Assembly: GCF_029392075.1 (NCBI RefSeq)
Contig: NZ_CP113929.1
Span: 1,984,001-2,048,000 of the forward strand
Source of the DNA: Bifidobacterium sp. ESL0704
GTDB lineage: Bacteria; Actinomycetota; Actinomycetes; Actinomycetales; Bifidobacteriaceae
Direction: 5' to 3'
Length of the DNA stretch: 64,000 nucleotides
Under the pieces are notes generated by a model. It saw only the letters and a list, made by a program, of their open reading frames with translations, was not told the origin of the DNA and did not search any database. Shown here piece after piece: positions 3,932-60,025 of the stretch (position 1 is its first letter; each line of letters opens with the position of its first letter). Position numbers and translations under genes: made by a program.

Positions 3932-5119
3932 TTATTCCCGTACAATCAGGGCGAGCAGGCGGCCTTCATGCTCTTTGTGGCCGAGACTTGCACGACGATG
4001 CGAGTAGAAAAGCGGGTTTTCCAACGTGCAGAGGCTGTGGCGCACCTCGCCGATACGCTCGGAGAGATTGGGACTACCTTCGCCGTCGGCGGCGCACAAA
4101 TCGGCAAGTTCCGCATCCTGATCGAGGTATTGTGTGGCGGCGCCGACACGTGGGGTCGAGCTGATGACATTGTCTGCCGGTATGCCAGCCTTGGCGAGTT
4201 CCTGCAGCGCGGCCTTGGCGATATCGATGCCGGGGCCTCCGAAACGGGTCAGGGTAAAGGTTGCCGGGAATTGCGCATCGAATTCGTCGGCGATCTGATC
4301 ACCGACCTCGTAGCAGTCGCCGCAGATGCAGGGGCCGAGCGTGGCCACGATACGATTCGGCTTCGCGCCTTTGGCCACCATCAGATCGACCGCAGACCCG
4401 ATGACCCCACGCTGCAACCCCTTCCGGCCGCAATGCGCCGCGCCGATCACACCCGCCTGCGCATCGGCCAGCAGCACCGGCAGGCAATCGGCCGCGAACA
4501 TGCCAAGCGCGATGCCGGTTTGCGCCGTGACCTCGGCGTCCGCTTCGAGGCGCGGATAGGCAGTCGGAGAGCCCGCATCGGCTTGGGACTGATTCGAAGA
4601 GGATTCATCGTTTTCGGTCGTGCCGGATTCGCTGATACTGATACGCGTATCGGTCTTGGTGATTGCAGTTCCGTCTGCGCCCTCGATCTCCTCGACATCA
4701 CGCTGTACCGCTATTGCATCGGTTTCTCCGGTCGCCGCACCATCACGCCGAGTTTGCGAACCGATAACCGTACCGGAACAATCGCAACCGTATGGTGCGT
4801 TGTACTCGAAGAACGTATCCACGTCAATGGCCTTGCCGGAATGGACCTGAGCCACCAAGGAAAGCGGAGCGCCCACTGCTTTGGCCAGCCCCATGCGATT
4901 GGCGACGACGGCAGCCGGGTCGTCACCTGACTTGCCGCCCAGATTGAGATTGCCCCAATCGTCGGTGCTTGAGCCGCCGAGCCGCGTGGTGTAGACGACC
5001 TTGACACCTGGCGCCAGGTCGATGGGAATCGTGACGGGAATGGGATTGCCGAATGTATCCGTCGATGGAATGGCATTGCTATTGAGAATCATGCCATCTT
5101 GGTTTGCAGTTTCACTCAT
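3932..5119 (-). CDS. YfiH/LACC1-family (polyphenol oxidase-like, purine nucleoside phosphorylase) protein
   Basis: This 395-residue protein belongs to the DUF152/YfiH family. Members have been described as multicopper-oxidase-like proteins and, more recently, as zinc-dependent purine nucleoside phosphorylase/adenosine deaminases. The metal-ligand motifs are visible: QVHSGKAID (His), AADCLPVLLAD (Cys), GAAHCGRKG (His), and the late GPCICGDCYEVG segment. Typical members have about 250 residues. The excess comes mainly from an acidic, Ser/Thr-rich insertion of about 75 residues (roughly 112-187) just before the conserved core. The ATG is preceded by AAGGTGG, which also reads as TAAGGT 6 nt upstream, so leadered and leaderless starts are both possible. 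The precise substrate is unknown. Confidence 0.8.
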   Translation of the reverse strand: MSETANQDGMILNSNAIPSTDTFGNPIPVTIPIDLAPGVKVVYTTRLGGSSTDDWGNLNLGGKSGDDPAAVVANRMGLAKAVGAPLSLVAQVHSGKAIDVDTFFEYNAPYGCDCSGTVIGSQTRRDGAATGETDAIAVQRDVEEIEGADGTAITKTDTRISISESGTTENDESSSNQSQADAGSPTAYPRLEADAEVTAQTGIALGMFAADCLPVLLADAQAGVIGAAHCGRKGLQRGVIGSAVDLMVAKGAKPNRIVATLGPCICGDCYEVGDQIADEFDAQFPATFTLTRFGGPGIDIAKAALQELAKAGIPADNVISSTPRVGAATQYLDQDAELADLCAADGEGSPNLSERIGEVRHSLCTLENPLFYSHRRASLGHKEHEGRLLALIVRE

Positions 5120-5223: not shown

Positions 5224-5423
5224 CTTGGTGCACCAAGACACCCCAAACGAGTGGAAAAGTGTGAATTCTCCCTTAAAAGGTCATCTTGGTGCACCAAGAT
5301 GCCCCAAATGAACGGAAAAATGTGAATTTCCCCCTTAAAGACCCATCTTGGTGCACCAAGATACGAATATTCGAGAGAATTGATATCATATTGCCCCAAA
5401 ACCGGCAACTTGGTGGCACCAAC
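5224..5423. repeat. Array A: four ~62-bp-spaced palindromes (CTTGGTGCACCAAG)
   Basis: Three perfect 14-bp palindromes CTTGGTGCACCAAG lie at 5224-5237, 5285-5298 and 5347-5360. A 15-bp variant CTTGGTGGCACCAAC lies at 5409-5423. The three spacers are 47, 48 and 48 bp, and the first two resemble each other. The array fills the gap between the 3' end of the U32 gene and the 5' end of the YfiH-family gene, both on the minus strand. The same element forms arrays at 41.5 kb and 57.2 kb. No coding region is seen in 5120-5501. Confidence 0.9.
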
Positions 5424-5501: not shown

Positions 5502-7067
5502 CTATTCAGCCTTGAGCGTGCGCTGCTTGGCACGCGACCGAATCATCGAGTGCTCGGCAATCGCGAATGGCAACGGCATCGAAAAGACATGCGCGGGGTT
5601 GTTGATTTCCTCGACGCTCTGACCGTCGGCGTCTTGCATGCCGCCTGCCGCGACCGTATAGTCAATCGGCTCGCGTCCCGGAATCAGGAACTCGATGAGC
5701 TGACCGGGTTCGATCTTGTTGCGGCTCATCAGGGTGAGACGTTGTGTCGCCTCGTCATAGCCGATGACCTCGCCGACCACGAGCCAGTCGCGGAAATAAC
5801 CGCCGCGATCGGTGTTCTGGCCGGCCTTGTGCTCCGGGTAGTAGAAACCGGTGGAATAATCACGGTGCGAAACCTTGTAGGGTTCGTCCTTAAGCCATTG
5901 GGGCAGCTCGACATGCTTTGGTTCAGCGTTCTGGGCTTTCGTGGCCTCGGCACCCACCAACGCCGGGACGCTCGCGGAAATCGTCGCCTTGGCCGCGGCC
6001 TCGGCGCCCGCATTCTGCACGCCACGGAAACCAATGGATCCGCTGGATTCAAGCTCCCCTACAGCGCGGGTCGCCCGCACGACGTCGGAACGACGCACCA
6101 TGTCGTGCAACGGCTTCAAGTGATTGCCGTCCGCATCCTCGAATCCGCGCTGCACCATATATTCATTGACCGCGCACTTGTAGGCGTTGGTGATCGCCGC
6201 AACATAGTACGCGCTTTTTGCCCGTCCTTCGATCTTGAGGCTTGAAGCGCCGGCGTCGATCATGTCGTCGATGTGTTCGAGCATGCACATGTCCTGCGAG
6301 TTGAAGAGGAAGGTGCCCTCGTCGTTTTCCTCGACCGGGAAGAACTGTCCGGGACGCTTCTGCTCGACGACGCTGTACTTCCAGCGACAGGGCTGCGAGC
6401 ACTCGCCGTGGTTGGCGTCGCGCCCGTTCATGTAGTTGGAGATGAGGCAGCGGCCGGAGAACGCCATGCACATCGAGCCGTGCACGAAGGTCTCGATATC
6501 CATGTCCTCGGGGATGTTGGCGCGGATGTCGGCAATCGCCTGCAGATCGAGTTCACGGGCCAGCACCACACGCCTCGCCCCCAGTTCGTAGAGGGCGTTG
6601 GCGGCAAGATAATTGGTCACGCCCGCCTGGGTGGAAACGTGCAATTCCAGTTGCGGGGCGATGGAATGAGCGGCCATCAGCACACCGATGTCGGTGATGA
6701 TCAGCGCGTCGATGCCTGTGGCGGCGAGGTGGGCAATGTAGGTCTTGATATCCTCGACCTCATCATTGTGCGGCAGGACGTTGCAGGTCACATACACCCT
6801 TGCCCCGCGCTCGTGGGCGTAGGCGGCGCCAACCTTCAGATCATCCATCGAAAGGTTCTTCGGCGCCGAACGCATGCCGAATTCCTTGCCACCGCAGTAG
6901 ACGGCGTCCGCGCCGAAATCGATGGCCGTCTTGAGGCTTCGTAAGCTGCCCGCAGGCGCCAACACCTCGGGCCTGCGCCGCCGTACCATCTTCGTCTGAA
7001 TCGGCTTGTTTTCGCTGCTTTCGGCCATCATTTCACCTTGATTGTTCTTGTATCCGCCCGTTTGCAC
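5502..7067 (-). CDS. U32 family peptidase-like protein (TrhP/YegQ type)
   Basis: This 521-residue protein belongs to the U32 family. Its N-terminal TIM-barrel part has the motifs EVLAPAGSLRSLKTAIDFGADAV (shown here only in part: LAPAGS and GADAVYCGG), HGSMCMAFSGRC and GECSQPCRWKY. The cysteines in these segments are conserved in the TrhP/RlhA branch, which takes part in prephenate-dependent hydroxylation of tRNA or rRNA. A tRNA-modification role is therefore likelier than proteolysis, but it is inferred. An Ala-rich stretch around residues 340-385 looks like an insertion before the C-terminal β-domain. The GTG at 7067 follows TAGACT by 6 nt (leaderless type). An internal ATG pair about 36 nt later, with AAGGTG upstream, is an alternative start. 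Confidence 0.85.
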   Translation of the reverse strand: MQTGGYKNNQGEMMAESSENKPIQTKMVRRRRPEVLAPAGSLRSLKTAIDFGADAVYCGGKEFGMRSAPKNLSMDDLKVGAAYAHERGARVYVTCNVLPHNDEVEDIKTYIAHLAATGIDALIITDIGVLMAAHSIAPQLELHVSTQAGVTNYLAANALYELGARRVVLARELDLQAIADIRANIPEDMDIETFVHGSMCMAFSGRCLISNYMNGRDANHGECSQPCRWKYSVVEQKRPGQFFPVEENDEGTFLFNSQDMCMLEHIDDMIDAGASSLKIEGRAKSAYYVAAITNAYKCAVNEYMVQRGFEDADGNHLKPLHDMVRRSDVVRATRAVGELESSGSIGFRGVQNAGAEAAAKATISASVPALVGAEATKAQNAEPKHVELPQWLKDEPYKVSHRDYSTGFYYPEHKAGQNTDRGGYFRDWLVVGEVIGYDEATQRLTLMSRNKIEPGQLIEFLIPGREPIDYTVAAGGMQDADGQSVEEINNPAHVFSMPLPFAIAEHSMIRSRAKQRTLKAE

Positions 7068-16100: not shown

Positions 16101-16155
16101 AATCATGCAACGCGATCTCGCCGCCGCGGCCAAACAACAGGGAGCGGCGCGATGA
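10114..16155 (+). CDS. fn3: Giant membrane-anchored Ig-like/fibronectin type III protein (PFNA cluster FN3)
   Basis: This 2013-residue protein has a short basic cytoplasmic N-terminus and one hydrophobic helix at about 30-50 (WLTPVLVLLLLLGIVAGAII). Everything after that is predicted outside the cell. Residues ~60-420 look like a β-propeller or beta-rich region. From ~420 to ~1500 there are many Ig/cadherin-like repeats with motifs such as AND and NDTDPMGG. At ~1510-1690 lie two recognisable FN3 domains (NLSWTPGPANGSPISEYVV, VTVSWDA). The start is supported by AAGGA at 9 nt. The gene is 86 bp after the kinase and overlaps the next small ORF by ATGA. The FN3 part has been proposed to bind host cytokines in bifidobacteria. 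Substrate and ligand here are unknown. Confidence 0.88.
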   Translation: MKASGKPQGERSVRLALRRLNSQTNRRWLTPVLVLLLLLGIVAGAIIINTLTRTHVHLDDGTVWVTSLKDRKAARFNVKLQQANGAVAPTTATFDVSQHNDDVILSDGAKAQGIVASNLGIHGKAEIRNSTSTFIGGNSAAFLNHKTGNVWVGDSGNLDSITPKTSAPQMQLGTHGLLALDRNGAVYGYRPADGAVLKMDDAHSAPKTLKSITGGKETNADSFTVIGDRPVIAVKQRIMWQGGSAQIDSRGPVTLQAPSTDNAQGDWLAASARNGIFTVDFKHGDKTAAFMNKGMAEDAQPVSSKGCVYAAWSQQAHNYIRLCSADGAANADQGKDDNTQAQWQSLQSISPTSQLVFRTNHRLVVLNDVTNGNVWNPDQSNKVIKIQWRQIQTKKTTNQQKNSDSANNQTQFKPTCSAKSGEIKAEDDNFGARVGGQQILDVLRNDEQSDCSVLHISKVGPVSGGGITVSPIYSGRYLQLDTTGAAAGKTSFTYEINDGRGQSSSATVNLDIIGDTTNRPPAQVDTPPEYDVEQGATFTLNALGSFADPEGDPMTLVSAVAQNNNQVAISTRADGQLVFNTGSLTGGRVGVEVTVSDGQHSGNGLIYFSVRPANTLPATIDAVTKNTTPDTSTTVELKQYVHGTSAQPPVLSSVNTPNGATTATNSADLSFTFKASNPGTYYVPYTISQGSIEAQGLARMEVQPVAGDSAKPVAANDVALLGADRTAIVEPLNNDTDPMGGVLSVTSVNVDPKLGIKTGLVAHKRVYMTARQIPTKPVRLTYTVTNAAGSTRGAIILQPPALTTANAAPKATNITANVRTGGIVSVDVIDHVSHADGTTVKLQNTLQFSKKTFKGLVFVSGDEVRYQASNTPGVYPVTYTVRDNLGNAASGIITITVHAKDANNKPAPTPQDAQAQVAAGQKVRIPITLTGIDTDGDDDTLLGLGDKSPKMGRIDEVGANYMVYEAYGDSSGTDTFSYAVEDWTGQRAQAQIRVGVYKGTSDSGVYARDDQVTLRPNTEATVPVAQNDISGDNTDLVVDKNLQMQGITGASVADNMISFKTPASAGTSYIVYCVKDKAGLSDTATLSVTTDPNAPIEPPTAYDYRVPSAATLDKKSVDVDLSQWIANPSGTAQELTVGIDPTAANHARVKGGAKSTTVTVDLTGEARSVPYTVTNTTYHVTSTAFVQVPQYGVFPPTLRPKAPAIKVNAKRSVNINLADYVRVGPGKTAYVDKDSISATKSADSDYYVNDQTLKFTAPKDYAGPASITFTVSDGKRDDNSKDKNGSKQAKIINSSVLTLPITVIGRNVPPPTFSASTISVAAGEDAKTIDLTALTHAPSGLDEDEKEYTYSGGQASGAIESHLTSNGKLTVKAPTDAAVGSMSSIPITIKYSAGSVSAGLTAQVVQSTRPLAKISGVNKKMNAGDSTTVDILSGAFNPFPDSSLTVVSCQADDTSKLKVDCGSKGSIGIHAAADIGASSNTVVVNVQDATKTKEREVSATITVSIIDKPDPPLLSPVAGLPADSAVNLSWTPGPANGSPISEYVVEYDGQSKSCGAVTTCNVTGLTNGKTYSFTVKAKNEAGWSKSSNSVESMPDKVPDAPSGIKVDGDYQKVTVSWDAASYIGTKPDDYLVTLSDGQSKHTNGTSQSISFSISNGAISDGTTISAKVRGHNRAGDGLVGDSSNSGTPWGDPDPPSVTLSQQDENTMKVSAEANNMRNSGCRSIDIDGHGSFDCRNASTTFELNDSDYGHPMIATATLVPDKGGAAKSSANSKPVTPGYNVKTPTNVILQLAGNSCKVSWQPNGRHSGFTISGSSKATVGKNDTSYAYTIGNWQNCGSVSVAQTLNDSTGSPVQATGSGNLTYKVRAKFNNIALTWGADHDHIIVTGSVDLFGQSGTTQIHIWSDDTEKIYDWPATGSLDVSDLPDALSGYTWQVVVTGTDSALNNDTGDHSQHPVSGAGRQQATLPSNTGTGDEGQDQSSESQSLVDRFPTLQKRIMQRDLAAAAKQQGAAR

Positions 16156-16307
16156 TGACGACTACGACAACGAACGATGCCGCCGTCACCACGGCCATGC
16201 CCTTCTACGACGGCATCCGCGCGTCCGAGAGGCGCAGCGACCAAAGCAGTCTATACAGCAGCAACCATCAATCGGCTCATCAAGCAATCATAAAGGAGAA
16301 TCTATGA
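16152..16307 (+). CDS. Small ORF coupled between fn3 and the MoxR gene
   Basis: This open frame of 51 codons begins MMTTTTTNDAAVTTAMPFYD and ends QAIIKENL. Its ATG overlaps the fn3 stop (ATGA at 16152-16155). Its stop overlaps the next ATG (ATGA at 16304-16307). GGGAG lies 7-8 nt upstream. The fit on both sides suggests translational coupling. The peptide is Thr-rich at the N-terminus and hydrophilic, with no membrane helix. I recognise no family. Several rarer codons (CTA, ATA, AGG) weaken the case. It may be a genuine micro-protein or merely a ribosome-relay frame that feeds the MoxR start. Confidence 0.4.
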   Translation: MMTTTTTNDAAVTTAMPFYDGIRASERRSDQSSLYSSNHQSAHQAIIKENL

Positions 16308-17971
16308 GCACGCACAAGGCAGACCCGTCAAACGATGAGACGCAGATCTCGGATGCCACACACATCTCCGATACCACCCATCAGTCGAGATTCAACAATA
16401 ACGACGACACCATGAACAGCCATCACAGCGCGTTCCCCTCGTTGCCGGAACGCTCCAGGTCCGAAGGCAAGTCGGAGTCCCAACATACCGGCGATCTCAG
16501 CGACGACAGCACCGTGCTCGGGTCCATCCACGGCGCAGGTGTCGACGATCCCGTCTCGGAAGAGACCGTACTGAGCACCTCGATGCCAAATGTCGGCAAC
16601 GACCCCATCTCAGAGGAAACCGTACTGAGCACCTCGATGCCAAACATCGGCAACGACCCCATCTCGGAAGAGACCGTACTGAGCACCTCGATGCCGAATG
16701 TCGGCAACGATTCATTTGCCCGTCCCGCCGAACAGCCATCGGACGCCTCCCTGGACGGTCCAACCGCGAACAGCCATGTCTCCACTCCGGCCACGACCGC
16801 CGCAACAGCCCCGACCACGACCGCCGCTACGGCTACGTCCACCGCCAACCCGGCAACACCTGCCAGCACTACGGCGAACACGGCGCAGAACGGATATCAG
16901 GCACCGGCCGGCAACACGAACCCGCAGGTCTCCCCCAAACCCGCCGACGCCAGCGTGGATTCGCTCTCGGCTCCCTACGCCTCGGCCTCCCCGGTTTCAG
17001 GCATCATCCAACCCCCGAAGGATTCCATCCTCGATTTCAAGCGTTCCTTCGACGCCTTGGTCGACAACATCGGCAAGGTCGTCGTCGGCAAGAGCGAGCC
17101 CATCAAACTGTGCGTCACGGCCCTGATGGTCGGCGGCCACGTGCTGCTGGAAGACAACCCAGGCACCGGCAAGACCCAGCTCGCCCGAGGCCTGGCCAAT
17201 TCCATCGCCACCTCGTTCAAACGCATCCAGTTCACCCCCGATCTGCTCCCGAGCGACGTGGTCGGCGTGACCTTCTACGACCAGAAATCCAGCGAATTCG
17301 AGTTCCGTCAGGGCCCGATCTTCGCCTCCATCGTCCTGGCCGACGAGATCAACCGCGCCTCGCCGAAGACTCAGTCCGCACTGCTGGAGGTCATGGAAGA
17401 GCAGAAGACCACCGTTGACGGCAAGACCTACCAGATGCCACAGCCGTTCATCGTCATCGCCACCCAGAACCCGCTGGAACAGCTTGGCACCTACAAGCTG
17501 CCCGAGGCCCAGATGGACCGCTTCCTGATCAAGACCTCCGTCGGCGCCCCCGGCCACGACGTATCAATCCGTATCTTGAAGGACATCGATATCACCGATC
17601 GCGCCGACACCGTTTCCGCAGTTTTGAGCGGCGACGACATCGTCAGGCTGCGCAAAACCGCCAAGGACGTACGCGTCGACGAACGCATCCTCGAATACAT
17701 CGAACGCCTGATCGAGGCCACCAGACTGAGCGAGAAACTCCGCGTCGGTTCCTCCATGCGCGGGGCCTTGGCGCTGACCCGCTGCGCCCGCATCTGGGCC
17801 GCCGCCGACGCACGCGACTACGTGCTTCCCGACGACGTGCAAGACCTCGCCGTACCAGTGCTCGCCCACCGCATCATTCTCAACGCCGAAACCGCGTTCA
17901 AGGGCGAAACGGCCGAACAGGTCGTCGCAGAAATCGTCGATTCCGTCCCGGCACCTGCCATGGGGGCCTGA
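16304..17971 (+). CDS. MoxR-type AAA+ ATPase with disordered repeat-bearing N-terminus (PFNA cluster)
   Basis: This 555-residue protein is AAA+ over its last ~320 residues: Walker [10 protein letters not shown], Walker [11 protein letters not shown], sensor IATQNPLEQ and the C-terminal lid. MoxR ATPases act as chaperones for metal-insertion or VWA-type partners and are usually paired with DUF58 proteins, as here. The first ~235 residues are low-complexity and unlike standard MoxR. They hold three perfect 18-residue repeats and one degenerate copy, each with a TVL motif, then a Thr/Ala/Pro-rich stretch. The ATG at 16304 has AAAGGAG 6 nt upstream. Upstream in-frame extension would cross the fn3 C-terminus in another frame and is not supported. 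The tail is a plausible substrate for the neighbouring kinase (inference). Confidence 0.9.
16559..16720 (+). repeat. Three tandem 54-bp coding repeats in the MoxR gene
   Basis: Three consecutive 54-bp units each encode 18 residues, starting [11 protein letters not shown] and ending GNDPIS or GNDSFA. A degenerate fourth unit (DDSTVLGS) precedes them. DNA identity between units is high, with mostly synonymous or conservative changes, which suggests recent tandem expansion. Copy number may vary between strains. Confidence 0.9.
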
Positions 17972-17981
17972 AAGCAACGCC

Positions 17982-19343
17982 ATGCACAACTCCCAAACCC
18001 AACACCAAACGCCCACAACGCCACCCGGTTCCCCCGCTTTTCGCCGCAACGGGGCCATGGCGGCAAGTACCAACGGCCGAAAAGGCCTTCGAGGACTCAA
18101 GGGCCGCAAACCCAGTTTGATACAGGGCAATACCCGCCTTGCGCTGTTATCGCTCAAGGTGCGACACCATCTGGTTGTCTTGCGCAGGAAACTGCCCGAA
18201 TGGCTTACCGCGTACGTTTCGCCGCTTGGTTGGTCGGTGACGGGCATGGCAGTGGTCTGCCTCGTGGCATTCCCTGCGTTGGGATGGCATGAGCTGCTGG
18301 TCTGCGGCATCATCGGACTGGTCATGCTGGCACTCGGCATCGCGATGTCACTTGGCAATACAAAATTCCATGCGGCGTTGTCCGTTTCCGACAACCGCAT
18401 CACCGTCGGCGACTCGGTCAGGGTCGACGTCAATATCGCCAACCCCGGCAAAAGCCCGACGGTAAGCGTTCAGGGCGACCTGCCGATGGGCGAGATGCAC
18501 CAGCACTTCCGCATCCCCGCCTTGATGCCCGGCAAATCCAGGGACGAACAGGTCGAGTTCCGCGCCACTTCACGCGCGATTCTCCCGGTCGGCCCGCTGA
18601 AAATCAGCAAGGGCGATCCTTTCGGCATCGTACGTCACGAACAGTCGCTTTCCGAGTCGGTGCAGGTCTTCATCCATCCGAAAACCGTCTTCCTCAACAC
18701 CCTCGATTCGGGCATCTTCCGAGACCTTGAGGGCAGTCCTTCCGGCCAGGTGGTCGACGATGACCTCGATTTCTACGGGTTACGCGAATACCGGCCTGGC
18801 GATGACATGCGTAACGTCCACTGGCTTTCGTCGGCGAAAACCGGCACGTTGATGGTCCGCCAATACGAAGCGACCAAACGCACCGATACCTCCATCACCC
18901 TTGGCGTCAACCCTACGGACTATACGACCGAAGACGAATTCGAGCTGGCCGTCAGCACCGCCGCCTCTATCGGCACCGAATGCCTGGTCGAAGGCCGTCC
19001 GCTGGCCGTACAAGCCTCCTCCGATTCCCTGATTGCGCGTGGGGCCATGCCGTTCCTCGATTGGATGAGCGGGGTCAAGCCGGATATGGACGAAAACCCG
19101 AATCTCGCGCTCACCACGTTGAAGACAAGCCCTGCGGCCTCGTTCTATTTCTTCGTGGTCGGTTCCGGCGCCAGACTCGAACGCCTCCGCCGTATCGCGG
19201 CCGCACTGAACCGGGAATCCATCTGCGTCATGCTGCAAATCGACCCCATAGCCGGCAATGCCATCCATCAATACGATGATTTCACCCTGGCCACGCTTTC
19301 AGCACTAGACGACCTTCCGGTGATTATGGAGGCGCTGAAATGA
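17982..19343 (+). CDS. DUF58 membrane protein (PFNA cluster)
   Basis: This 453-residue protein has two adjacent membrane helices at about 78-125, then a cytoplasmic or peripheral β-rich segment. The DUF58 signature [17 protein letters not shown] lies near residue 265, followed by a VWA-like domain. DUF58 proteins are the usual partners of MoxR ATPases. The gene lies 10 bp after the MoxR stop. No strong Shine-Dalgarno sequence precedes the ATG, so translation is probably coupled. A later start at an internal Met (around residue 26) cannot be excluded. It overlaps the next gene by ATGA. Function is unknown; an assembly or folding role with the MoxR ATPase is inferred. Confidence 0.88.
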
Positions 19344-22123
19344 GCGGCACCAATCCTATACGCAATGCTTTCAATGCGGCAAGCCGGTCGAAAACCCCCG
19401 ATCGGACTTCCCTTCCCGATTTCACCGGCACCACCGGCACATGGGCGAGCACGACCCGGGCACCGATCGCGCTGACCGCCACCGGCAACGGCCAACGTCA
19501 GATATTCGTCACCGTTCATCGTCCTTGGACCACCGCCTCCATCGGCGCCCTGCTTGTCCTGGTCGCCGTGTGTCTCAATGCCGCCAATCTCATCGATGTC
19601 TACGGCAACATCCCGGTCTGGGCGATGGCGGCGGTCCCGGCAGCGGCACTTGGCGTGTTGATCGCCTTGGCCGGTGTCAATCCGGCGCTGAAGCTCTGGT
19701 GGCAAATCGTCTTTCTGACCCTTGCCCAGTTCCTCGTCGGCCCTGTCGTCGCACTCAACGGCACCACCATCGGCCATATCGTGCCGAGCCTGCAGACCTT
19801 GAGCCAAGGACTAACGCAGACCTTCGGCTCGTTCAAATATGTCATCGCCGTGGTCCCTCCGCTCGGAAGCGCCAACGGCAGCCTGATGGCTCTGTGGACG
19901 CTCAATCTGTGGACGGCGTTCCTCGCGGGCGTTTTCGCGGTTTCAGAAAGCCAGCGCATCAACCTCATCACCGTTTTCCCGCTGGCGTTGAACCTCGCGG
20001 TCAGCGCGCTGTTGGGAACCGCCTACGGCACGTTGCGCCCTGCTTGCGCGATCGTCGCCATGCTGGCGCTGGTCATCTGGCTGGCCTGGCGCTGGCAGTC
20101 GCTGGACATCCATCGTGCAATAAGCATGGCCATCATCATCCTTCTTGCCATCGCTCTCGCCTTCGGCGCTACCCTCATCGTCCCCCAGCACCGCCTCACC
20201 CTGCGCGACCGTTACAACCCGCCGCTCGACCCGCACCAATACACCAGTCCTTTAAGCGGCATGCGATCCTACGTCAAATACCACAAGAAGGAAACACTGC
20301 TTTCGGTTTCCGGGCTTCCTGCGGGCACGCCGGTGCGTCTTGCCGTCATGGACCGCTTCGACGGCAATGTCTGGAACCTTTCGGATTCCACCGACGCCAG
20401 CGATTCCTCCGATTACCGCAAGGTCGGCAGCGCCATCGCCAACACGACCCAGGGCGAACATTTCAAGGCCACCTTCACGATACGAAAAGGCTTCTCCGAA
20501 CAATGGCTGCCGTTGGCGGGTGATGCCTCGTCGATCAGTTTGAAAGGCCAGGATTTCTACTACAACACGGGAACCCATTCCGCCATCGTTGCCAATACCC
20601 CACTTGGCGGGCAGACCTACACCGAATCCGGCGTCATCGCCGATATGCCCACCCAACAGCAGATCACCCACGCCCAGGCCCAACGCATTACGCAACCAGA
20701 GGCGAAGGACATCCCCGACAGCGCCAGCAAACTTGCGCCGTCACTGACCGGCAAACAGTCCAGCGACGGCGCGACCGCACAGACGCTGGCCACCGCATTG
20801 AAGACCAAAGGCTGGTTCTCGCACGGCCTCGCCGGCGATTATCCTTCGCTGCCCGGCCACGGCAATTTCCGCATCGATTCCATGCTCGGCGGCACGGCGA
20901 TGGTCGGCGACAGCGAGCAGTATGCTTCGGCGATGGCGATGATGGCCCGGGAGCTGAACCTTCCCTCCCGCGTGGTGCTTGGTTTCATCCCGAAAGACAA
21001 GGACGGCAACATCTCCAAGTCCCGCACCTCGCACGGCAGGAACAGTGCTACACAGACCGATTTCACCGGCAACGACATCGAGGCCTGGGTCGAGATCAAC
21101 TTCAAGGATTACGGCTGGGTTCCTTTCTATCCCACACCGAAGGAAACCAAGACCCCGAACAAGAACCAAGATCTGACGCCGCCGAACCCGAAGACACTCG
21201 TCCGCCAGCCGCCGGTACCGCTCGTCGACCCTCTGCACGACCAGAACCAGGCCCGCGACCAGTCCTCGCTTGACGGTGCGGATGCAGGCGACAAGAACGG
21301 CAATGCCACACTGATGAAAATTCTCATGGTGGCGCAAAAGGTAGCCGTCTACGGCAGTCCGCTGTGGATCATCCTTATCCTCTGCGGGCTGATTCTGCTC
21401 ATCAAAGCCATCCAACTGGCCGTCATGGCCCGTCGGGGCAGTTCCACTCAGCGCATCGCCTCCGGCTGGAAGGCCATCGATATGCTCGCCGACCAGAGCG
21501 GTATCAAGACCTCCGGCACCCGCAGGCATCAGGCGGCCCAGATCGACGAGGCCCTGAAGGCCGCGCTGCAGGGCACGAATGCCACAAGTCCGGCGACGGC
21601 AGCCATCACGGACTCGACGTCGGGGCCGGCCACGACCCACAAGGAAAGCAAAGCCGCCCAAAAAGCAGCCAGGAAAGCAAACGGACCGAAAAAGAAGAAG
21701 ACCTCCAACGCACGCCCCATCGATCTCGAAGCGTTGAGACTGCTCTCGCGCGAGGCCGATTGGGTCGCCTTCTCCGGCAAGCAACCGGAAGAGGCCGCCA
21801 GTAAGGATTATTGGAAGCGGGTCAAGGCCATGCGCAAGGCAATCCTTGCCGATCAGCCCCGTATGCGCCGCCTGCGCACCCGGCTTTCGCTCAAGGGCGT
21901 CTTCCAAGTGCCGCACTTCAGTCTCCAGCGTTTCAAAAGGTCGGGTTCCGCCGGTTCGGCAGGTCCTACAGGTGCCGGCGCGGCAAATCCCAAAACAGGG
22001 AAAAGCGCGAAAAACAGCAGGAAAAAGCCTCGCAAAACCATGAAAAGCAATACAACGAAAGACAAGTCTATACTGACTAATGTGCATGCAAAACGCAAAT
22101 CCACCGCACGGAAAGGTCGTTGA
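19340..22123 (+). CDS. Transglutaminase-like membrane protein lacking the catalytic triad (PFNA cluster Tgm)
   Basis: This 927-residue protein has a TgpA-like layout. About seven N-terminal membrane helices (~55-290) are followed by an extracytoplasmic region, a transglutaminase-core fold at ~510-600, one more helix near 675 and a basic cytoplasmic tail. The core aligns well (SRVVLGFIP, AWVEINF, GWVPFYPTP), but the catalytic positions differ from the canonical Cys-His-Asp. DCEQF becomes GDSEQY (Ser525), the His before AW becomes Glu581, and the Asp before PT becomes Tyr597. It is therefore probably a pseudoenzyme or has changed chemistry. It starts within the DUF58 stop (ATGA overlap) and is followed 2 bp later by prpC. 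Confidence 0.87.
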   Translation: MSGTNPIRNAFNAASRSKTPDRTSLPDFTGTTGTWASTTRAPIALTATGNGQRQIFVTVHRPWTTASIGALLVLVAVCLNAANLIDVYGNIPVWAMAAVPAAALGVLIALAGVNPALKLWWQIVFLTLAQFLVGPVVALNGTTIGHIVPSLQTLSQGLTQTFGSFKYVIAVVPPLGSANGSLMALWTLNLWTAFLAGVFAVSESQRINLITVFPLALNLAVSALLGTAYGTLRPACAIVAMLALVIWLAWRWQSLDIHRAISMAIIILLAIALAFGATLIVPQHRLTLRDRYNPPLDPHQYTSPLSGMRSYVKYHKKETLLSVSGLPAGTPVRLAVMDRFDGNVWNLSDSTDASDSSDYRKVGSAIANTTQGEHFKATFTIRKGFSEQWLPLAGDASSISLKGQDFYYNTGTHSAIVANTPLGGQTYTESGVIADMPTQQQITHAQAQRITQPEAKDIPDSASKLAPSLTGKQSSDGATAQTLATALKTKGWFSHGLAGDYPSLPGHGNFRIDSMLGGTAMVGDSEQYASAMAMMARELNLPSRVVLGFIPKDKDGNISKSRTSHGRNSATQTDFTGNDIEAWVEINFKDYGWVPFYPTPKETKTPNKNQDLTPPNPKTLVRQPPVPLVDPLHDQNQARDQSSLDGADAGDKNGNATLMKILMVAQKVAVYGSPLWIILILCGLILLIKAIQLAVMARRGSSTQRIASGWKAIDMLADQSGIKTSGTRRHQAAQIDEALKAALQGTNATSPATAAITDSTSGPATTHKESKAAQKAARKANGPKKKKTSNARPIDLEALRLLSREADWVAFSGKQPEEAASKDYWKRVKAMRKAILADQPRMRRLRTRLSLKGVFQVPHFSLQRFKRSGSAGSAGPTGAGAANPKTGKSAKNSRKKPRKTMKSNTTKDKSILTNVHAKRKSTARKGR

Positions 22124-40058: not shown

Positions 40059-41423
40059 TCAGTTCTTGAAACTGTGTATCGGAGCGGGGATGCGGCCGCC
40101 GCGGGTGACGAAGGCCTCGCAGGAGGTCTGATTGACGGGAATGATCGGCGCGTAGCCCATCAGCCCGCCGAAGTTGGCCACCTCGCCGACATCTTTGCCG
40201 TAGACCGGAATGACACGCACGGCGGTGGTCTTTTGGTTGACCATGCCGATGGCGGCCTCGTCGGCGATCATGCCCGAGATTGTGGATGCCGTGGTGACGC
40301 CCGGGATGGCAATCATGTCAAGGCCGACCGAGCAGACGCAGGTCATCGCCTCAAGCTTTTCGATCTTCAGGCAGCCGGACGCGGCCGCATCGATCATGTT
40401 CTTGTCTTCGGAGACCGGAATGAACGCGCCGGAAAGACCGCCGACGTAGGAGGAGGCCATGATGCCGCCCTTCTTGACCTGGTCGTTCAACATCGCGAGC
40501 GCCGCGGTGGTGCCGGGAGCGCCGACCTGTTCGAGCCCGATCTTCTCCAAGACCTCACCCACCGAGTCCCCGACGGCCGCCGTCGGAGCCAGCGACAAAT
40601 CGATGATGCCGAATGGCACGCCGAGCCGCCTCGAGGCTTCCTGCGCGACCAACTGGCCGACGCGGGTGATTTTGAAGGCGGTGCGTTTGATGGTCTCGCA
40701 CAAAAACTCGAAATCCTTGCCTTTTGCGGCATCGAGCGCACGCGAGACCACGCCCGGCCCGGAAACGCCGACGTTGACGACCACGTCTCCTTCGGTCACC
40801 CCGTGGAAACCGCCGGCCATGAACGGGTTGTCATCGGGGGCGTTGCAGAACGCCACGAATTTGGTGCACCCGTCGCTGTCGGTCTCCCGAGTGGCATAGG
40901 CGGTGTCCTTGATGACATGGCCAAGCAGCTCAACGGCATCCATGTCGATGCCGGTTTTGGTCGAACCGACGTTGACCGAGGAACAGACGATATCAGTTTG
41001 CGATAACGCCTGCGGAATCGACTCGATGAGCATGCGTTCCGCCGGAGTCATCGACTTGGAGACCAATGCCGAGTATCCACCGATAAGGTCGACGCCGACC
41101 TCCTTGGCCGCACGGTCGAGCGCGTGGGCGATTTTGACGAAATCAGCGGGCGAATGGCAGGAGCTGGCCCCTACAAGCGCGATCGGGGTGACGGTGATGC
41201 GCTTGTTGACGATGGGGATGCCGAAATCACGTTCGATGGCCTTGCCGACCTTCACGAGGTCGCGCGCTTTGTCGGTAATTTTGCGGTAGATGTTGTCGCA
41301 GACCGCCTCCACATCAGCCGCCGCACAGTCAAGCAGCGAAATACCCATGGTAATCGTACGCACGTCGAGCTTTTCCTGCTCGATCATCGCATTGGTCTCG
41401 CGGACCTCCATAATATTCAGCAT
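40059..41423 (-). CDS. UPF0210 (PFL/DUF711) family protein
   Basis: This 454-residue cytoplasmic protein belongs to UPF0210, distantly related to glycyl-radical (pyruvate formate-lyase-like) folds. No activity is established. Segments such as [24 protein letters not shown] and [13 protein letters not shown] fit the family. It is nearly always encoded next to a small ACT-domain protein, as here. The ATG at 41423 is chosen because AGAGG lies 7 nt upstream and the length then matches family members; an in-frame GTG 30 nt earlier is less likely. The ACT gene lies 246 bp upstream across palindrome array B and a large hairpin. Confidence 0.9.
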
Positions 41424-41474
41424 TTGCTTGCCTCTTTCATACGCTTCTGACACAAATCTCTCGTTATGATGTCT

Positions 41475-41614
41475 GTTGGTGCCACCAAGCAGGCCATTTT
41501 TCCGAGAATCATACCCAATTCATTCGTTTTTATGGGGTCTTGTTGCACCAAGACCACCTAAAACACCACAATCACATCCCATTTATGGATAATCACGCTG
41601 CTTGGTGCACCAAG
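41475..41614. repeat. Array B: three ~62-bp-spaced TTGGTGCACCAA palindromes
   Basis: Cores lie at 41475-41489 (15-bp form GTTGGTGCCACCAAG), 41539-41552 (CTTGTTGCACCAAG, one mismatch) and 41601-41614 (perfect). Spacers are 49 and 48 bp. The array lies between the ACT gene's 3' end and the UPF0210 gene's 5' end, co-directional as with arrays A and C. Confidence 0.88.
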
Positions 41615-41669: not shown

Positions 41670-41942
41670 TCAGATCCGATGCATACTCGTGAAGATTTCC
41701 TCGCGCTGACAGCGAATACGTACGCCGATCTTGTCGCCGAGCGCCTCGAGTCCGTCGACCAATGCCGAGAATTCTTCATCGGACTTGGAGTAATCGACAA
41801 TCATCATCATGTTGAAGAATCCGTCGATGATGGTCTGCGAAATATCAAGAACGTTGACCTTGTGCTCGGAAAGATAGGTGCAGACCTGCGCGATAATGCC
41901 GACCGCGTCCTGTCCGACCACCGTAATGACCGCTTTATCCAT
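41670..41942 (-). CDS. ACT-domain protein (UPF0237)
   Basis: This 90-residue protein is a single ACT fold (AVITVVGQDAVGIIAQVCTYL, here given as its two halves AVITVVGQDAVG and IIAQVCTYL). It is of the GcvR-like type, probably a small-ligand (amino acid) sensing dimer. AAGGGG precedes the ATG at 5 nt. It is the usual partner of UPF0210 proteins; together they may form a ligand-regulated enzyme, but no substrate is known. Confidence 0.9.
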   Translation of the reverse strand: MDKAVITVVGQDAVGIIAQVCTYLSEHKVNVLDISQTIIDGFFNMMMIVDYSKSDEEFSALVDGLEALGDKIGVRIRCQREEIFTSMHRI

Positions 41943-56027: not shown

Positions 56028-57071
56028 TCACAGCCGCGCCAGAATATCCCGTCCGACTTCGGCGGTGGTGCGCGTCTTCTGTGCGTTTTCGGCGATATCG
56101 TCCTCAACGACCGTTTCGATACGCGCGGCGGGCTCATCCATGCCAAGGTGACGCAGCAGCATCGCAGTGGAAAGGATGGTCGCGGTCGGGTTGGCGATGC
56201 CCTTGCCGGCGATGTCAGGGGCGGAGCCGTGGATCGGCTCGAACATCGAGGGGTACTCGTTGGTTGCGTTGATGCAGCCGGACGCCGAATAGCCGACGCC
56301 GCCGACCACGCTACCGGCCTCGTCGGTGATGATGTCGCCGAAGAGGTTGTCGGTCAGGATCACGTCGAAGCGGGACGGCTCGGTGACCATGAAGATGGTG
56401 GTCGCATCGATGTGCAGGTAATCGTGGCTGACCTCGGGGTATTCCTCGCCCACCTTGTCAACGATGCGCTGCCACATATCGCCGGCGTTGATCAGCACGT
56501 TCTTCTTGTGCACCAGCGTGACGTGCTTCTTGCGTTTCATCGCCAGGTCGAAGGCGTAACGCACCACGCGCTCGACGCCGTAGGCCGTGTTGATGGAGAC
56601 CTCGGTGGCCACCTCGTGGGGCGTACCCTTGCGGATCGCGCCGCCTGCGCCGCAATAGAGGCCTTCGGTGCCTTCGCGCACCACGACGAAATCGATGTCG
56701 CCCGGGTTCTTCAACGGGGACTCGACACCTTTGTAGAGCTTGGACGGGCGCAGGTTGACATACTGGTCAAGATCGAAACGCAGTTTCAACAGCAAACCAC
56801 GTTCAAGTAAGCCGGCCGGTACGTCAAGCCGAGGGTCGCCAATGGCCCCCAACAGAATGGCGTCGGTTTTCTTGATACGCTCGAGGTCCTCGTCAGGCAG
56901 CACAGCCCCATCACGCACATAACGCTGGGAGCCGAGGTCGAAGTCCTCATACTCGAAATCGGCCACACCCTGCATAGCCTTCTCCATGACCTGCTGGGCA
57001 GGAGGAATGATTTCCTTGCCAATGCCGTCGCCTGGAATGACGGCGATATGATATGTTTTTTTAGTGCTCAT
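56028..57071 (-). CDS. leuB: 3-isopropylmalate dehydrogenase
   Basis: This 347-residue NAD-dependent enzyme performs the oxidative decarboxylation step of leucine synthesis. Motifs: [13 protein letters not shown], the substrate-loop [30 protein letters not shown], the metal-binding aspartates in [13 protein letters not shown], and [14 protein letters not shown]. It is the short actinobacterial type. TAACGT lies 7 nt before the ATG at 57071 and no Shine-Dalgarno sequence is seen. Other leucine genes are not adjacent. Confidence 0.93.
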
Positions 57072-57078
57072 AGCCGCG

Positions 57079-57084
57079 ACGTTA
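57079..57084 (-). promoter_or_regulatory. Candidate -10 box (TAACGT) for leaderless leuB
   Basis: TAACGT fits TAnnnT and ends 7 nt before the ATG. On its own it is weak; the recurrence at other genes gives it weight. Confidence 0.35.
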
Positions 57085-57164
57085 GTACCGAATTCGGCAC
57101 TGTCCACTATATGGTCCAGCAAATGGACATCACCGATTCCGCGATTTCTTCCGTTTTGAAGGCT

Positions 57165-57428
57165 CTTGGTGCCACCAAGTAGGCCAAAATTCAAAGAATC
57201 AACACCCATTCTCAAAATTCCGGGCAACTTGGTGCACCAAGCAGGCCAAAATACGGAGATTCAACACCAAAAGACACATTTCCACCCATCTTGGTGCACC
57301 AAGTAGGCCAAAATACGGAGATTCAACACCTAAAGACACATTTCCACCCAACTTGGTGCACCAAGCAGGCCAAAATACGGAGATTCAACCCCTATTCTCA
57401 AAATTTCGGACAACTTGGTGCCACCAAG
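57165..57428. repeat. Array C: five ~62-bp-spaced palindromes (CTTGGTGCACCAAG)
   Basis: Perfect 14-bp palindromes lie at 57228-57241, 57290-57303 and 57352-57365. Each end carries the 15-bp form CTTGGTGCCACCAAG (57165-57179 and 57414-57428). All four spacers are exactly 48 bp and highly similar (AGGCCAAAATACGGAGATTC inside). The array fills the gap between the oligopeptidase 3' end and the leuB 5' end, both minus-strand. No cas genes are near. Confidence 0.95.
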
Positions 57429-57460
57429 AAAGTGATATGAGAGCAAATAAGGGTATCTCG

Positions 57461-59986
57461 CTACTCTTCGATTCCCATGGTATGAAGACACCAGGCGTTT
57501 TCGTCGCTGACTTCCTGCCACTGCTTGTAGCGCCCGGAAGTCCCACCGTGACCGGCCTCGACCTCGATGCGCGCGATGGCGTCGACGCCCTGCGATTGCA
57601 GACGGGCGATCCATTTCAGCGGTTCGACGTAGAGCACACGGGTATCGTTCAGCGAAGTGGTGGCGAAAATCTTCGGATAGTACGAGGCAGCGGAATCGGA
57701 GACATGGCCACCATCAGCATCCTGCTTTCCGAAGGCACGCTTTTCAGTAATCCGATCCGATTGCCAGGGTTCCGAATCCCCCTGCCAATGGCCGAACGGC
57801 GCGTTTTCGTAAGGGGAATACGACTTCATATAGTCATAGACGGCCTTGTCGTGAAGCGGATCGCCCCACTCGTCCCATTCGGTGACCGTCAGGGGCAGCG
57901 ACGGGTCGAGAATCGAGGTGAGCGCGTCCACAAACGGCACGTCGGCCTCGATGCCCGCATAGCATTCCGGAGCCATATTCGCCACGGCACCCATCAAGAG
58001 GCCTCCCGCTGAACCACCATTGGCGACGCTGCGTTTCGGATCGGCAAGTCCCGCCCGCTGCAAGGCTTTGGTAGCATCCACGAAATCATTGAACGTATTA
58101 CGTTTATGAAGCCTTCGCCCTTGCTCGTACCAGGCACGGCCCATCTCGCCGCCGCCACGCACATGCACCACGGCGTAGAGCACACCACGGTCGAGCATAC
58201 TCACTCGCGCCACGGAAAAACCGGGGTCGCTGTCTGCCTCGTAGGCCCCGTAACCGGTGATGAACATCGGCGAGGCAGACACCAAAGACGCCACAGAGTG
58301 AGGATTCTCAGACCTGTCATTTGCACCATCAAGCAGGTCGATACCGCTGAAATCCTCGCCCAGCGCGCCCATGGCCGTGCAGCAATCCTGCCTCCAGACC
58401 AGGGAGACCGGCACGAGCTCGCCGTCACGCACCCGCACCCAGATACGGCGCTCGCGATAGTTCGCGGCGTCGAAACCGCCGTGCACTTTCGCACGCTTCA
58501 GAAGCCTGCTGGTGCCGGTGGCCACGTCCAACTCGCGCAGCTGCCCGGGTTGCGTATAGCTTGCGAACGAGTAGCGGAGCCGCGGCACATTGTAGGAGGG
58601 ATTGCCGCCGGCCCCGATGGAATAGAGATGCCGGTTGCTGCCGTTCTCGTCTGGTTTGAGCTCGCGGAAGTGCCACGGACGATGAGCCAGGAAATCCTGC
58701 AACGCTTCGTCTTTTCTCATCACCGCGATATGGGGCAGGCTGTTGTTGCGATAACTCAGCACAACGAAATTGCGGTACATCGCGATGCCCTCGATACCCA
58801 GCCCGCGAGCGCCGCGCAGGATGTCAGGGTTGTCGAGATTGCTATACGGCGTATTGACCGGTAGTCCGCTCGCCCCCGACTCGACCTCATCGCCGCGCTC
58901 GCAACCGTAAGGCGAACCCTGCGCCACGATTACACCTTCGCCCAGCGCATACGGCGGTTCATGGGCATTCAAGTCGACTACATCAACCTCGAAATTCGGG
59001 TTGTTCGCGTTGTGATAGACCAGTGCCAGCGGGATATCGGCCCCGCCAACGCCCGCGCCTTCGAAGCTGGCGAAACTGACATCGTATTCGACGCCTTCCT
59101 GCCGCGGGATGAACGCCCGGAACTCGCCTTCCGGGTCGCTGACCGGCAGCATCAGCACCTCGCTGGTGGTCTTGGACGAGCAGCCGATGACCATGTTGCG
59201 TTCGTCGAAGCTCAGCCCGACGCTGATCCAGAAGTGTTCGTCGGATTCGCGGAACACCTCAACGTCATCATCGACAGGCGTGCCGACCCGGTGCCGGCAA
59301 ACCGCATATGGCCGCCAGGATTGATCGAGCATCGTGTAGAACACCCACTTGCCGTCGGGTGTGAAGCAGGCCTCGGCAATACCCTTGAAAATTTCGGGCA
59401 GCTCGTGGCCGTCCTCGAGGCTGCGGATGCGGTAATCATAGCGTTCGCTGCCTACGGTGTCGGTGCCGTAGAGCAGCCAACGGCCGTCGCGGGTCAGGTC
59501 AAGCCCTCCCAGACGGAAGAAATCGTGGCCTTTTGCCTCGACGTTCGGATCGAAAACGACCTGCTCCCCCGGATTCGCCCCCGGAGCGTCGCCGGCCTTG
59601 ATTTGCGGCGGATCCCAATCATCCGGCCCTGCGATCGGCAGGCGGCACTGCACTCCGTATTGTTTGCCTTCCTGGGTGCGCACGAAATACCAATAGCCAT
59701 CCATCCGCGTCGGCACGGACATGTCCGTCTCGTCGACCCGTGACTTGAGCTCTTCGAATAGGCGGCGTTTCAGTCCGTCGAAACCGGCCGTGCGGGCCTG
59801 GTAATATTCGTTTTCCTCACGCACAAATCGTTGCAATTCCGGTGAATTCTTGTCGCGCATCCACTCATAGGGGTCAATGAACGTATCGCCGTGAACGCTA
59901 CGCGCGTGCGGTCTGCACAAGGCATGCGGAACAGCGGGGGTATCGGCGTGCCGCGTCGAGGCCGCCATGTTCGTTTCATCAGTCAT
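57461..59986 (-). CDS. Prolyl oligopeptidase family (oligopeptidase B-like, S9A)
   Basis: This ~841-residue cytoplasmic serine peptidase has an N-terminal β-propeller (~70-480) and a C-terminal α/β-hydrolase. The triad is Ser in NGGSAGGLLMG, Asp in LNDTRVLYVEP and His in EAGHGGTSGR. Near the catalytic Asp it has an insertion of ~35 residues (from FGHWQGDSEPW to SDSAAS) not seen in typical members. The start is uncertain: ATG at 59986 (MTDETNMAAS) or 59992, both just after TAGGCT. It follows the APP1-type gene by 39 bp on the same strand, so co-transcription is possible. Confidence 0.9.
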   Translation of the reverse strand: MTDETNMAASTRHADTPAVPHALCRPHARSVHGDTFIDPYEWMRDKNSPELQRFVREENEYYQARTAGFDGLKRRLFEELKSRVDETDMSVPTRMDGYWYFVRTQEGKQYGVQCRLPIAGPDDWDPPQIKAGDAPGANPGEQVVFDPNVEAKGHDFFRLGGLDLTRDGRWLLYGTDTVGSERYDYRIRSLEDGHELPEIFKGIAEACFTPDGKWVFYTMLDQSWRPYAVCRHRVGTPVDDDVEVFRESDEHFWISVGLSFDERNMVIGCSSKTTSEVLMLPVSDPEGEFRAFIPRQEGVEYDVSFASFEGAGVGGADIPLALVYHNANNPNFEVDVVDLNAHEPPYALGEGVIVAQGSPYGCERGDEVESGASGLPVNTPYSNLDNPDILRGARGLGIEGIAMYRNFVVLSYRNNSLPHIAVMRKDEALQDFLAHRPWHFRELKPDENGSNRHLYSIGAGGNPSYNVPRLRYSFASYTQPGQLRELDVATGTSRLLKRAKVHGGFDAANYRERRIWVRVRDGELVPVSLVWRQDCCTAMGALGEDFSGIDLLDGANDRSENPHSVASLVSASPMFITGYGAYEADSDPGFSVARVSMLDRGVLYAVVHVRGGGEMGRAWYEQGRRLHKRNTFNDFVDATKALQRAGLADPKRSVANGGSAGGLLMGAVANMAPECYAGIEADVPFVDALTSILDPSLPLTVTEWDEWGDPLHDKAVYDYMKSYSPYENAPFGHWQGDSEPWQSDRITEKRAFGKQDADGGHVSDSAASYYPKIFATTSLNDTRVLYVEPLKWIARLQSQGVDAIARIEVEAGHGGTSGRYKQWQEVSDENAWCLHTMGIEE

Positions 59987-60025
59987 AAGCATCAAGCCTA
60001 TAACTCATCGAACGAACGGCAAAAT

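Follow-up and report, generated by a model that had tools for sequence, protein, structure and literature searches.

Phased arrays of 62-bp palindromic modules with predicted curvature form a dispersed, terminus-avoiding family in Bifidobacterium sp. ESL0704 and related species

Introduction

The described systems closest to the arrays reported here are the chromosomal binding sites of Noc and SlmA. Noc-binding sites in Bacillus subtilis and its relatives are described as about 70 palindromes of 14 bp that are scattered over the chromosome and absent from or underrepresented in the terminus (PMC4726725, PMC4331003). For Escherichia coli, 24 to 52 palindromic SlmA-binding sites are reported, underrepresented in Ter, to which SlmA binds as a dimer of dimers, distorting the flanking DNA (PMC4726725). 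Site arrays for Noc or SlmA that are added in Ter are reported to delay division (PMC4726725, PMC4331003). Actinobacteria are described as having none of the canonical Z-ring regulators of the E. coli kind (PMC7118173). A-tracts phased at 10 to 11 bp are reported from prokaryote genomes (PMC3940949).

The arrays described here resemble the sites of Noc, a ParB paralogue that inhibits division over the DNA it binds, in their palindromic cores of about 14 bp, in their number per chromosome (90 cores in 28 arrays), and in their depletion from the terminus, with none found between 987 and 1683 kb. They differ in standing in rows of at least three, in their 62-bp phasing, and in the conserved, predictedly curved DNA between cores; no array-specific ParB-domain paralogue was found. 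Similarly, they are like the sites of SlmA, a TetR-family protein that binds FtsZ, in number, palindromic core and terminus avoidance, but unlike them in forming phased multi-module arrays and, it seems, in having another core. In the ParB-parS system the site is TGTTTCACGTGAAACA, from which the arrays differ, and they lie elsewhere than near the origin. Seven canonical parS sites (TGTTTCACGTGAAACA) are present within 4.2 kb near dnaA and parB (L033:1328-5510).

REPs are sequence-related copies with hairpin potential. The arrays share with REP and BIME elements a dispersed, intergenic, palindromic and grouped character, but they differ from REPs, BIMEs and MITEs in lacking full-length homology (the maximum similarity between arrays lies within the permuted range, and the mean slightly above it), in lacking hairpin potential, and in loci that are fixed between species. 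CRISPR arrays, which have unrelated spacers, cas genes and a repeat of at least 23 bp, are alike in their short palindromic repeat and regular spacing. The present arrays are not CRISPR, as an earlier note on this DNA had already concluded. The repeat is 14 to 15 bp, the spacers bear a motif, and the anatomy is conserved between species. No cas domain occurs among the annotated flanking genes. Genomic A-tract signals share the 10- to 11-bp phasing, whereas the arrays are a discrete landmark of fixed length with a sequence-specific core. We know of no counterpart to a fixed three-module curved architecture. Within an open-access subset of the literature, TTGGTGCACCAA was not found, 17 of the 18 papers containing TTGGCGCGCCAA seem, to judge by title, to concern cloning or primers, and nothing relevant stood among the papers listed for Bifidobacterium palindromic or REP repeats.

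Results

Three arrays in the window belong to a genome-wide family

The window is a 64-kb stretch (1,984,001-2,048,000) of the Bifidobacterium sp. ESL0704 genome, which is one contig of 2,415,815 bp (G000 in our genome surveys). The earlier note had placed three arrays in it, each a row of palindromic cores with 47- to 49-bp spacers. Core places and spacer lengths are as claimed: 47/48/48 in array A, 49/48 in array B, whose middle core is the mismatched form CTTGTTGCACCAAG, and 48 four times in array C. The features, in window coordinates, are as follows.

57165..57428, no strand: array C, five cores, four 48-bp spacers
57165-57179 (15-bp), 57228-57241, 57290-57303, 57352-57365, 57414-57428 (15-bp): array C cores
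57141..57164, no strand: left outer half-module of array C, from its sequence and the profile of 56 outer flanks
57429..57452, no strand: right outer half-module of array C, on the same basis
56028..57164, minus strand: leuB-like gene (Iso_dh, PF00180), adjoining array C
57461..59995, minus strand: prolyl oligopeptidase gene (Peptidase_S9), on the opposite side of array C
5224..5423, no strand: array A, four cores, spacers 47/48/48
5224-5237, 5285-5298, 5347-5360, 5409-5423 (15-bp): array A cores
3932..5119, minus strand: laccase-type gene (Cu-oxidase_4), flanking array A
5502..7067, minus strand: peptidase U32 gene, flanking array A
41475..41614, no strand: array B, three cores, spacers 49/48
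41475-41489 (15-bp), 41539-41552 (CTTGTTGCACCAAG), 41601-41614: array B cores
40059..41453, minus strand: DUF711 gene, flanking array B
41670..41942, minus strand: 90-aa ORF upstream of DUF711, array B lying between them

The conserved N-terminus of the leuB-like product suggests that the true start lies about 93 bp inside the ORF at 56028..57164. We take the 90-aa ORF at 41670..41942 to encode an ACT-domain-like protein. Elsewhere in the window (10114-22123), a gene for a 2013-aa Big_9/fn3 repeat protein is followed by genes for MoxR-type AAA, DUF58 and transglutaminase proteins; together they may form an operon with a surface or secretion-related role.

Genome-wide, TTGGTGCACCAA occurs in 49 copies and TTGGTG N{0,1} CACCAA in 81, versus 0 for the reversed control in each case. 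All 81 exact cores (12- and 13-bp forms) lie inside 28 arrays at steps of 61 to 63 bp; a 126-bp step in array B is 2 x 63 and spans the mismatched middle core, and the arrays at 987137 and 1683072 have one exact core each, with in-phase degenerate cores beside it. With in-phase degenerate cores included, there are 90 cores and 62 spacers in the 28 arrays. No array has fewer than three cores: 23 have three, 4 have four, and array C has five. The spacer is 48 bp in 58 of 62 cases, 49 bp in three and 47 bp in one.

The phased palindrome arrays are a real family that is not confined to the window. Random spacing of the core had been set beforehand as refuting the idea of phased arrays, as had a single recent duplication as the source of the 48-bp spacing; neither is the case, and the exact core never occurs outside an array in G000. 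Searching the full genome and other Bifidobacterium genomes for the core, as had been proposed, revealed arrays far beyond the window. The 15-bp form, noticed in the window as tending toward array ends, is indeed an end feature (37/56 terminal versus 3/34 internal cores; Fisher p = 6e-8), and 19 of the 56 array ends carry GTTGGTG, with G replacing the outermost C. The earlier note had not remarked on the tracts within the spacers, the minimum of three modules, the array-free terminus region or the variation of the core between species.

The array unit is a symmetric 62-bp module with phased A/T tracts

Read outwards from the core edge, spacers follow the pattern W-N-S-S-C-Y-N-WWWW...AWT at fixed distance (58 spacers). 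The four-W tract is 95-100% A/T over 116 half-spacers, and in the A-W-T triplet at positions 18-20 of the same half-spacers the three letters are found in 93%, 99% and 82% of cases, respectively. The half-pattern is present but weaker in the outer flanks (n = 56; tract 75-96% and triplet 82-100% A/T), and no pattern is seen in these 56 flanks past about 24 bp. The repeating unit is therefore a two-fold symmetric module of 62 bp with the core at its centre, and at least three of these make up an array. At array C, the left outer half-module (57141..57164) has, read outwards, the tract AAAA in the expected place and an A-rich AAAT near the triplet place; on the right (57429..57452) the triplet AAT is in place and the tract, TATG, is A/T in part only.

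TpA occurs in 21 of the 106 all-W tracts versus about 69% expected for random A/T, indicating that the tracts are A-tract-like (A4/T4-like). Tract centres lie 16 bp and triplet centres 25.5 bp from the core centre, distances close to half-integral turns for a 10.33-bp repeat (62/6). The earlier suggestion that the period equals about six helical turns is borne out by the power of W content at 10.33 bp, which reaches 69.9 where 2000 shuffles give at most 1.4; at 10 bp it is 76.6. A wedge model gives a median contour/end-to-end ratio of 1.72 for the arrays, compared to 1.08 for shuffled sequences and 1.05 for 264 nearby stretches, and places all 28 arrays above the 95th percentile of those stretches. 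The arrays are predicted to be strongly curved, and under this model the bending appears to be encoded in the sequence of the array itself. Comparable sequence regularity is associated with nucleosome-positioning DNA.

Spacer sequences differ between arrays, as the three arrays of the window had indicated. The best pair agrees at 33/48 positions, inside the column-permuted range (mean of maxima 31.7, highest 36 of 48), and the mean between-array similarity, at 21.99, exceeds the permuted 21.54 (sd 0.06) by a small but clear margin. The spacers of array C are homologous, also as first described, with up to 45/48 identical positions; this is unusual in view of a median of 25/48 inside arrays, and near-copy neighbouring modules occur in some arrays (C and those at 2,080,814 and 938,224). 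Further, we compared columns between G000 and its close, array-bearing relative G086 over 14 arrays with an alignment spanning the element, using 14-bp cores only (48 cells per column). Differences in the tract and triplet columns number 4 in 336 cells, each a W-to-W exchange, versus 66 in 816 cells of the remaining non-core columns (Fisher p = 1e-6), and the core columns are 98-100% identical. At the level of these alignments, the comparison shows tract and triplet columns under constraint.

Arrays avoid the terminus region

With dnaA at 2,414.8 kb, the origin lies near 0, and in the samples taken GC skew changes sign, positive to negative, between 1,285 and 1,330 kb. Array positions, tabulated against ori and ter as the earlier note had advised, avoid the terminus region: G000 arrays lie at 143-987 kb and 1,683-2,349 kb, on either side of an array-free zone of 696 kb (987-1683 kb) centred at 1,335 kb, on the skew switch. 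Under random placement of 26 loci, close pairs being merged, the probability of so large a gap is 0.005, falling to 0.0002 when its centre must also be no more than 40 kb from the switch. Among the matches listed, G090 is free of arrays at 876-1,609 kb (switch at about 1.2 Mb), and G086 at 395-1,062 kb bar one degenerate array at 855 kb (switch at about 0.7-0.8 Mb). These deserts are not independent of that in G000, since array loci are inherited, and amount to one ancestral pattern.

Young DNA in a less conserved terminus zone could be the cause of the desert. In a rough test with predicted positions, 4 of 15 terminus-zone samples of G000 were at least 60% covered in G086 versus 3 of 5 flanking samples. 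The G086 array near 855 kb (L051), the only one seen inside any terminus zone, has two of its three cores damaged and is perhaps decaying because of its place there.

The array set is shared by a few Bifidobacterium species

We surveyed other genomes with a degenerate, two-site core pattern. Six of 112 genomes of the genus match, with 57 forward matches in G000, 51 each in G086 and G090, 41 in G092, 29 in G082 and one in G083. At the order level (396 genomes, including G000 and G086), five match, and the three others do so once each, in spacers that by eye have no A/T tracts. The strict core has 0 matches in the genome_contigs set, which perhaps does not include genomes near that of the window. 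The degenerate core matches there in the Bifidobacterium MAG B-bin1 (16 of 17 stretches) and once in Atopobacter. B-bin1 was taken as G082, as the array sequences are identical; the Atopobacter match, the sole non-bifidobacterial one in genome_contigs, lies inside an apparent real CRISPR array, was put down to chance and was left out of the G082 set. A viral origin of the arrays was rejected on 0 matches of the degenerate two-site pattern in viral_contigs.

Across the five Bifidobacterium genomes with many matches, the core ranges from CTTGGTGCACCAAG to CTTGGCGCGCCAAG. Among the exact 12-bp cores of the loci retrieved, TGCA forms the centre of 49/49 in G000 and 27/29 in G086, and CGCG that of 39/44 in G082. 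G090 (12 TGCA, 29 mixed, 13 CGCG) and G092 (4 TGCA, 5 mixed, 9 CGCG) have mixtures; the core change is not strictly set-wide. The core differences between species are C/T changes at CpG steps (CGCG, CGCA/TGCG, TGCA). Methylation-driven deamination, instead of protein co-evolution, might lie behind the shift. The 15-bp form is found in 21/50 cores of G086, 2/56 of G090, 0/44 of G082 and 0/18 of G092. The spacer tract anatomy is alike in all five (G000, G086, G090, G092 and B-bin1/G082).

Judged by flanking genes, loci orthologous to G000 array loci account for 18 of the 18 array-bearing loci fetched from G090, 14 of 15 in G086, 14 of 16 in G082 and 5 of 5 in G092, two of these via one flank only. 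Locus L042 of G090, a lone core within a gene and inside the terminus zone, was left out of the array count, and three of the 19 G090 arrays have two strict cores only. Since the loci are orthologous in deeply diverged species, present movement of the arrays seems unlikely. G083 has a single array with a CGCG core between trmD and rimM (L193, 2,191,500-2,196,500), possibly the last survivor of a lost set.

In a three-gene tree, array-bearing branches interleave with array-free ones: G092 is earliest, G082 and G090 are sister to G084 and G089, and G000 and G086 are sister to G091 and G083. Single-gene trees disagree with each other. The distribution suggests one gain and two losses of the array set within the genus. 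At the two loci examined in array-free relatives, leuB (upstream regions compared by eye) and dapB, the intergenic DNA is without cores. Given that two sister lineages do without the set, the function of the arrays is not essential.

Neighbouring genes share no pathway

Gene orientations were taken from simple mechanical ORF calls, with three of the neighbours being small ORFs without a family. The earlier description of the arrays as lying between co-directional genes holds for A, B and C but not for the family (18 co-directional, 6 divergent, 4 convergent). A position just upstream of a 5' end does not hold for the family either: four of the 28 arrays have convergent 3' ends on both sides, and some are placed within what look like operons (rimM-trmD and ACT-DUF711 among them). 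The neighbours include biosynthetic genes (LeuA, LeuB-like, DapB, HisD, EPSP-synthase-family of AroA or MurA type, thymidylate synthase) as well as RimM/TrmD, glycerol-3-phosphate dehydrogenase, trigger factor, chloride channel, adenylosuccinate synthetase, RNase E/G, DNA polymerase III alpha, aconitase, P-type ATPases and transporters. No pathway is common to the annotated flanking genes.

Discussion

The earlier reading of the arrays as sites for a dimeric DNA-binding protein is supported by the phased symmetric modules. We propose that they are chromosome-wide binding arrays of a putative DNA-wrapping protein, with a part in chromosome architecture or division timing more likely than regulation of neighbours; we see this proposal as evenly poised between right and wrong. 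A dimeric or larger symmetric protein would recognise the core CTTGGYGCRCCAAG in each module and track the DNA outwards via narrow minor grooves, those of the A/T-tracts at 16 bp and of the AWT triplets at 25.5 bp from the core centre; pre-bent DNA, which extends some 27 bp on either side, would assist it. The 186-bp array would thereby wrap or bend sharply, with cooperation between adjacent complexes that share one face of the DNA, and at least three complexes would be needed. The arrays are fixed landmarks over the chromosome, the terminus excepted, and our guess at their cellular role is a nucleoid-occlusion-like or nucleoid-structuring one. The terminal 15-bp form and outermost G fit an end module whose outer half-site matters less in the G000 lineage. 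The core change between species and the near-complete absence in two sister lineages would fit one trans-acting factor.

A Noc-type ParB paralogue was rejected as that factor. A PF02195 search of 16 genomes matched in all, G000, G086, G090 and G092 have one parB and no further ParB-domain paralogue, and the extra ParB-domain genes of G082, G083, G087 and G098 do not track the arrays. In a bolder form of the proposal, which we consider doubtful, the array is a nucleosome-like wrapping element programmed by its sequence: at some 28 fixed addresses, none near the terminus, a dedicated protein would fold at least three consecutive 62-bp modules into a near-circular particle. Some bifidobacteria would thus have a nucleoid-occlusion or chromosome-folding system of a type undescribed in Actinobacteria in the papers searched, gained once and lost at least twice within the genus. 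For Actinobacteria, described as lacking canonical Z-ring regulators, a terminus-avoiding fixed array set offers a concrete handle. The array can serve as bait for the putative binding protein, and natural gain and loss between close relatives is a built-in genetic comparison.

The main rival takes the arrays to be operators of a DNA-wrapping global regulator, for example of the Lrp/AsnC (feast/famine) kind, that controls the neighbouring genes. By mechanical ORF calls, 24 of 28 arrays have a gene start on one side or both, the LeuA, LeuB-like, DapB, HisD, EPSP-synthase-family and thymidylate synthase genes are among the neighbours, and the predicted curved DNA fits a wrapping regulator. However, a high share of 5' ends is expected of intergenic regions in general, the four arrays between convergent 3' ends and those within apparent operons (rimM-trmD, ACT-DUF711) sit poorly with operators, and the remaining neighbours are unrelated (chloride channel, trigger factor, RNase E/G, DNA polymerase III alpha, P-type ATPases); we think such a regulator unlikely. 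The palindromic core and intergenic position might also suit an RNA-level element, with the arrays as hairpin rows, terminators or processing sites in transcripts. Arm complementarity around the cores is 0.370 versus 0.383 shuffled, so that the arms are without covariation, and A-runs and T-runs are interchangeable on either side of the core, which together point to DNA structure, not RNA. In the 5 of 24 array-bearing G000 sources scanned, all outside the window, only a tRNA exceeded the Rfam gathering score, and we give an RNA-level role hardly any credence.

Next after the regulator comes a past mobile element. On this view a non-coding, REP/BIME/MITE-like element, mobile or recombinogenic, would have had a single episode of spread in an ancestor, and the arrays would be what is left of it, handed down passively. 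The arrays are intergenic and discrete, the array-free relatives examined lack them at leuB and dapB, and their mean similarity slightly exceeds the column-permuted level. In addition, pairs of arrays bracket other DNA at two loci. At dapB, two arrays bracket a nuclease-like gene in G000, G086, G090 and G092, and at leuB in G092, arrays stand at both ends of about 2.1 kb between leuB and the S9 peptidase gene.

L019:2787-3764 (genome 647,289-648,263): nuclease-fold gene (MTES_1575/DUF559-like), PF18741 match below cut-off
L076:2634-2771 and L046:1928-2065 (about 1,408.0-1,410.5 kb): G092 bracketing arrays, where G000 has one array

The bracketed genes hint at insertion or recombination at arrays, which may mark insertion points. 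Against a mobile remnant, there is no strong homology between arrays beyond the motif, the motif columns are under constraint, the loci are fixed across species with no sign of movement now, and a passive relic would hardly have retained 90 phased cores; we regard this origin as decidedly unlikely. Could the nuclease-fold gene itself encode a dedicated array-binding factor? Besides its place between arrays, its orthologues (57-98% identical) occur only in these 4 of 18 genomes searched, and none is found in 8 array-free or array-poor close relatives. Yet G082 keeps its arrays with only paralogues of about 28% identity and no such gene within 1.5 kb of dapB, and shared inheritance of one locus explains the association. 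The gene is probably not the factor, given its absence from G082, and we rate its candidacy as very unlikely. At the DNA level it is 97% identical between G000 and G086 and about 65% identical to G090 and G092, unlike its neighbours. The ORFs in the G092 stretch of about 2.1 kb are presumably ABC-transporter-like.
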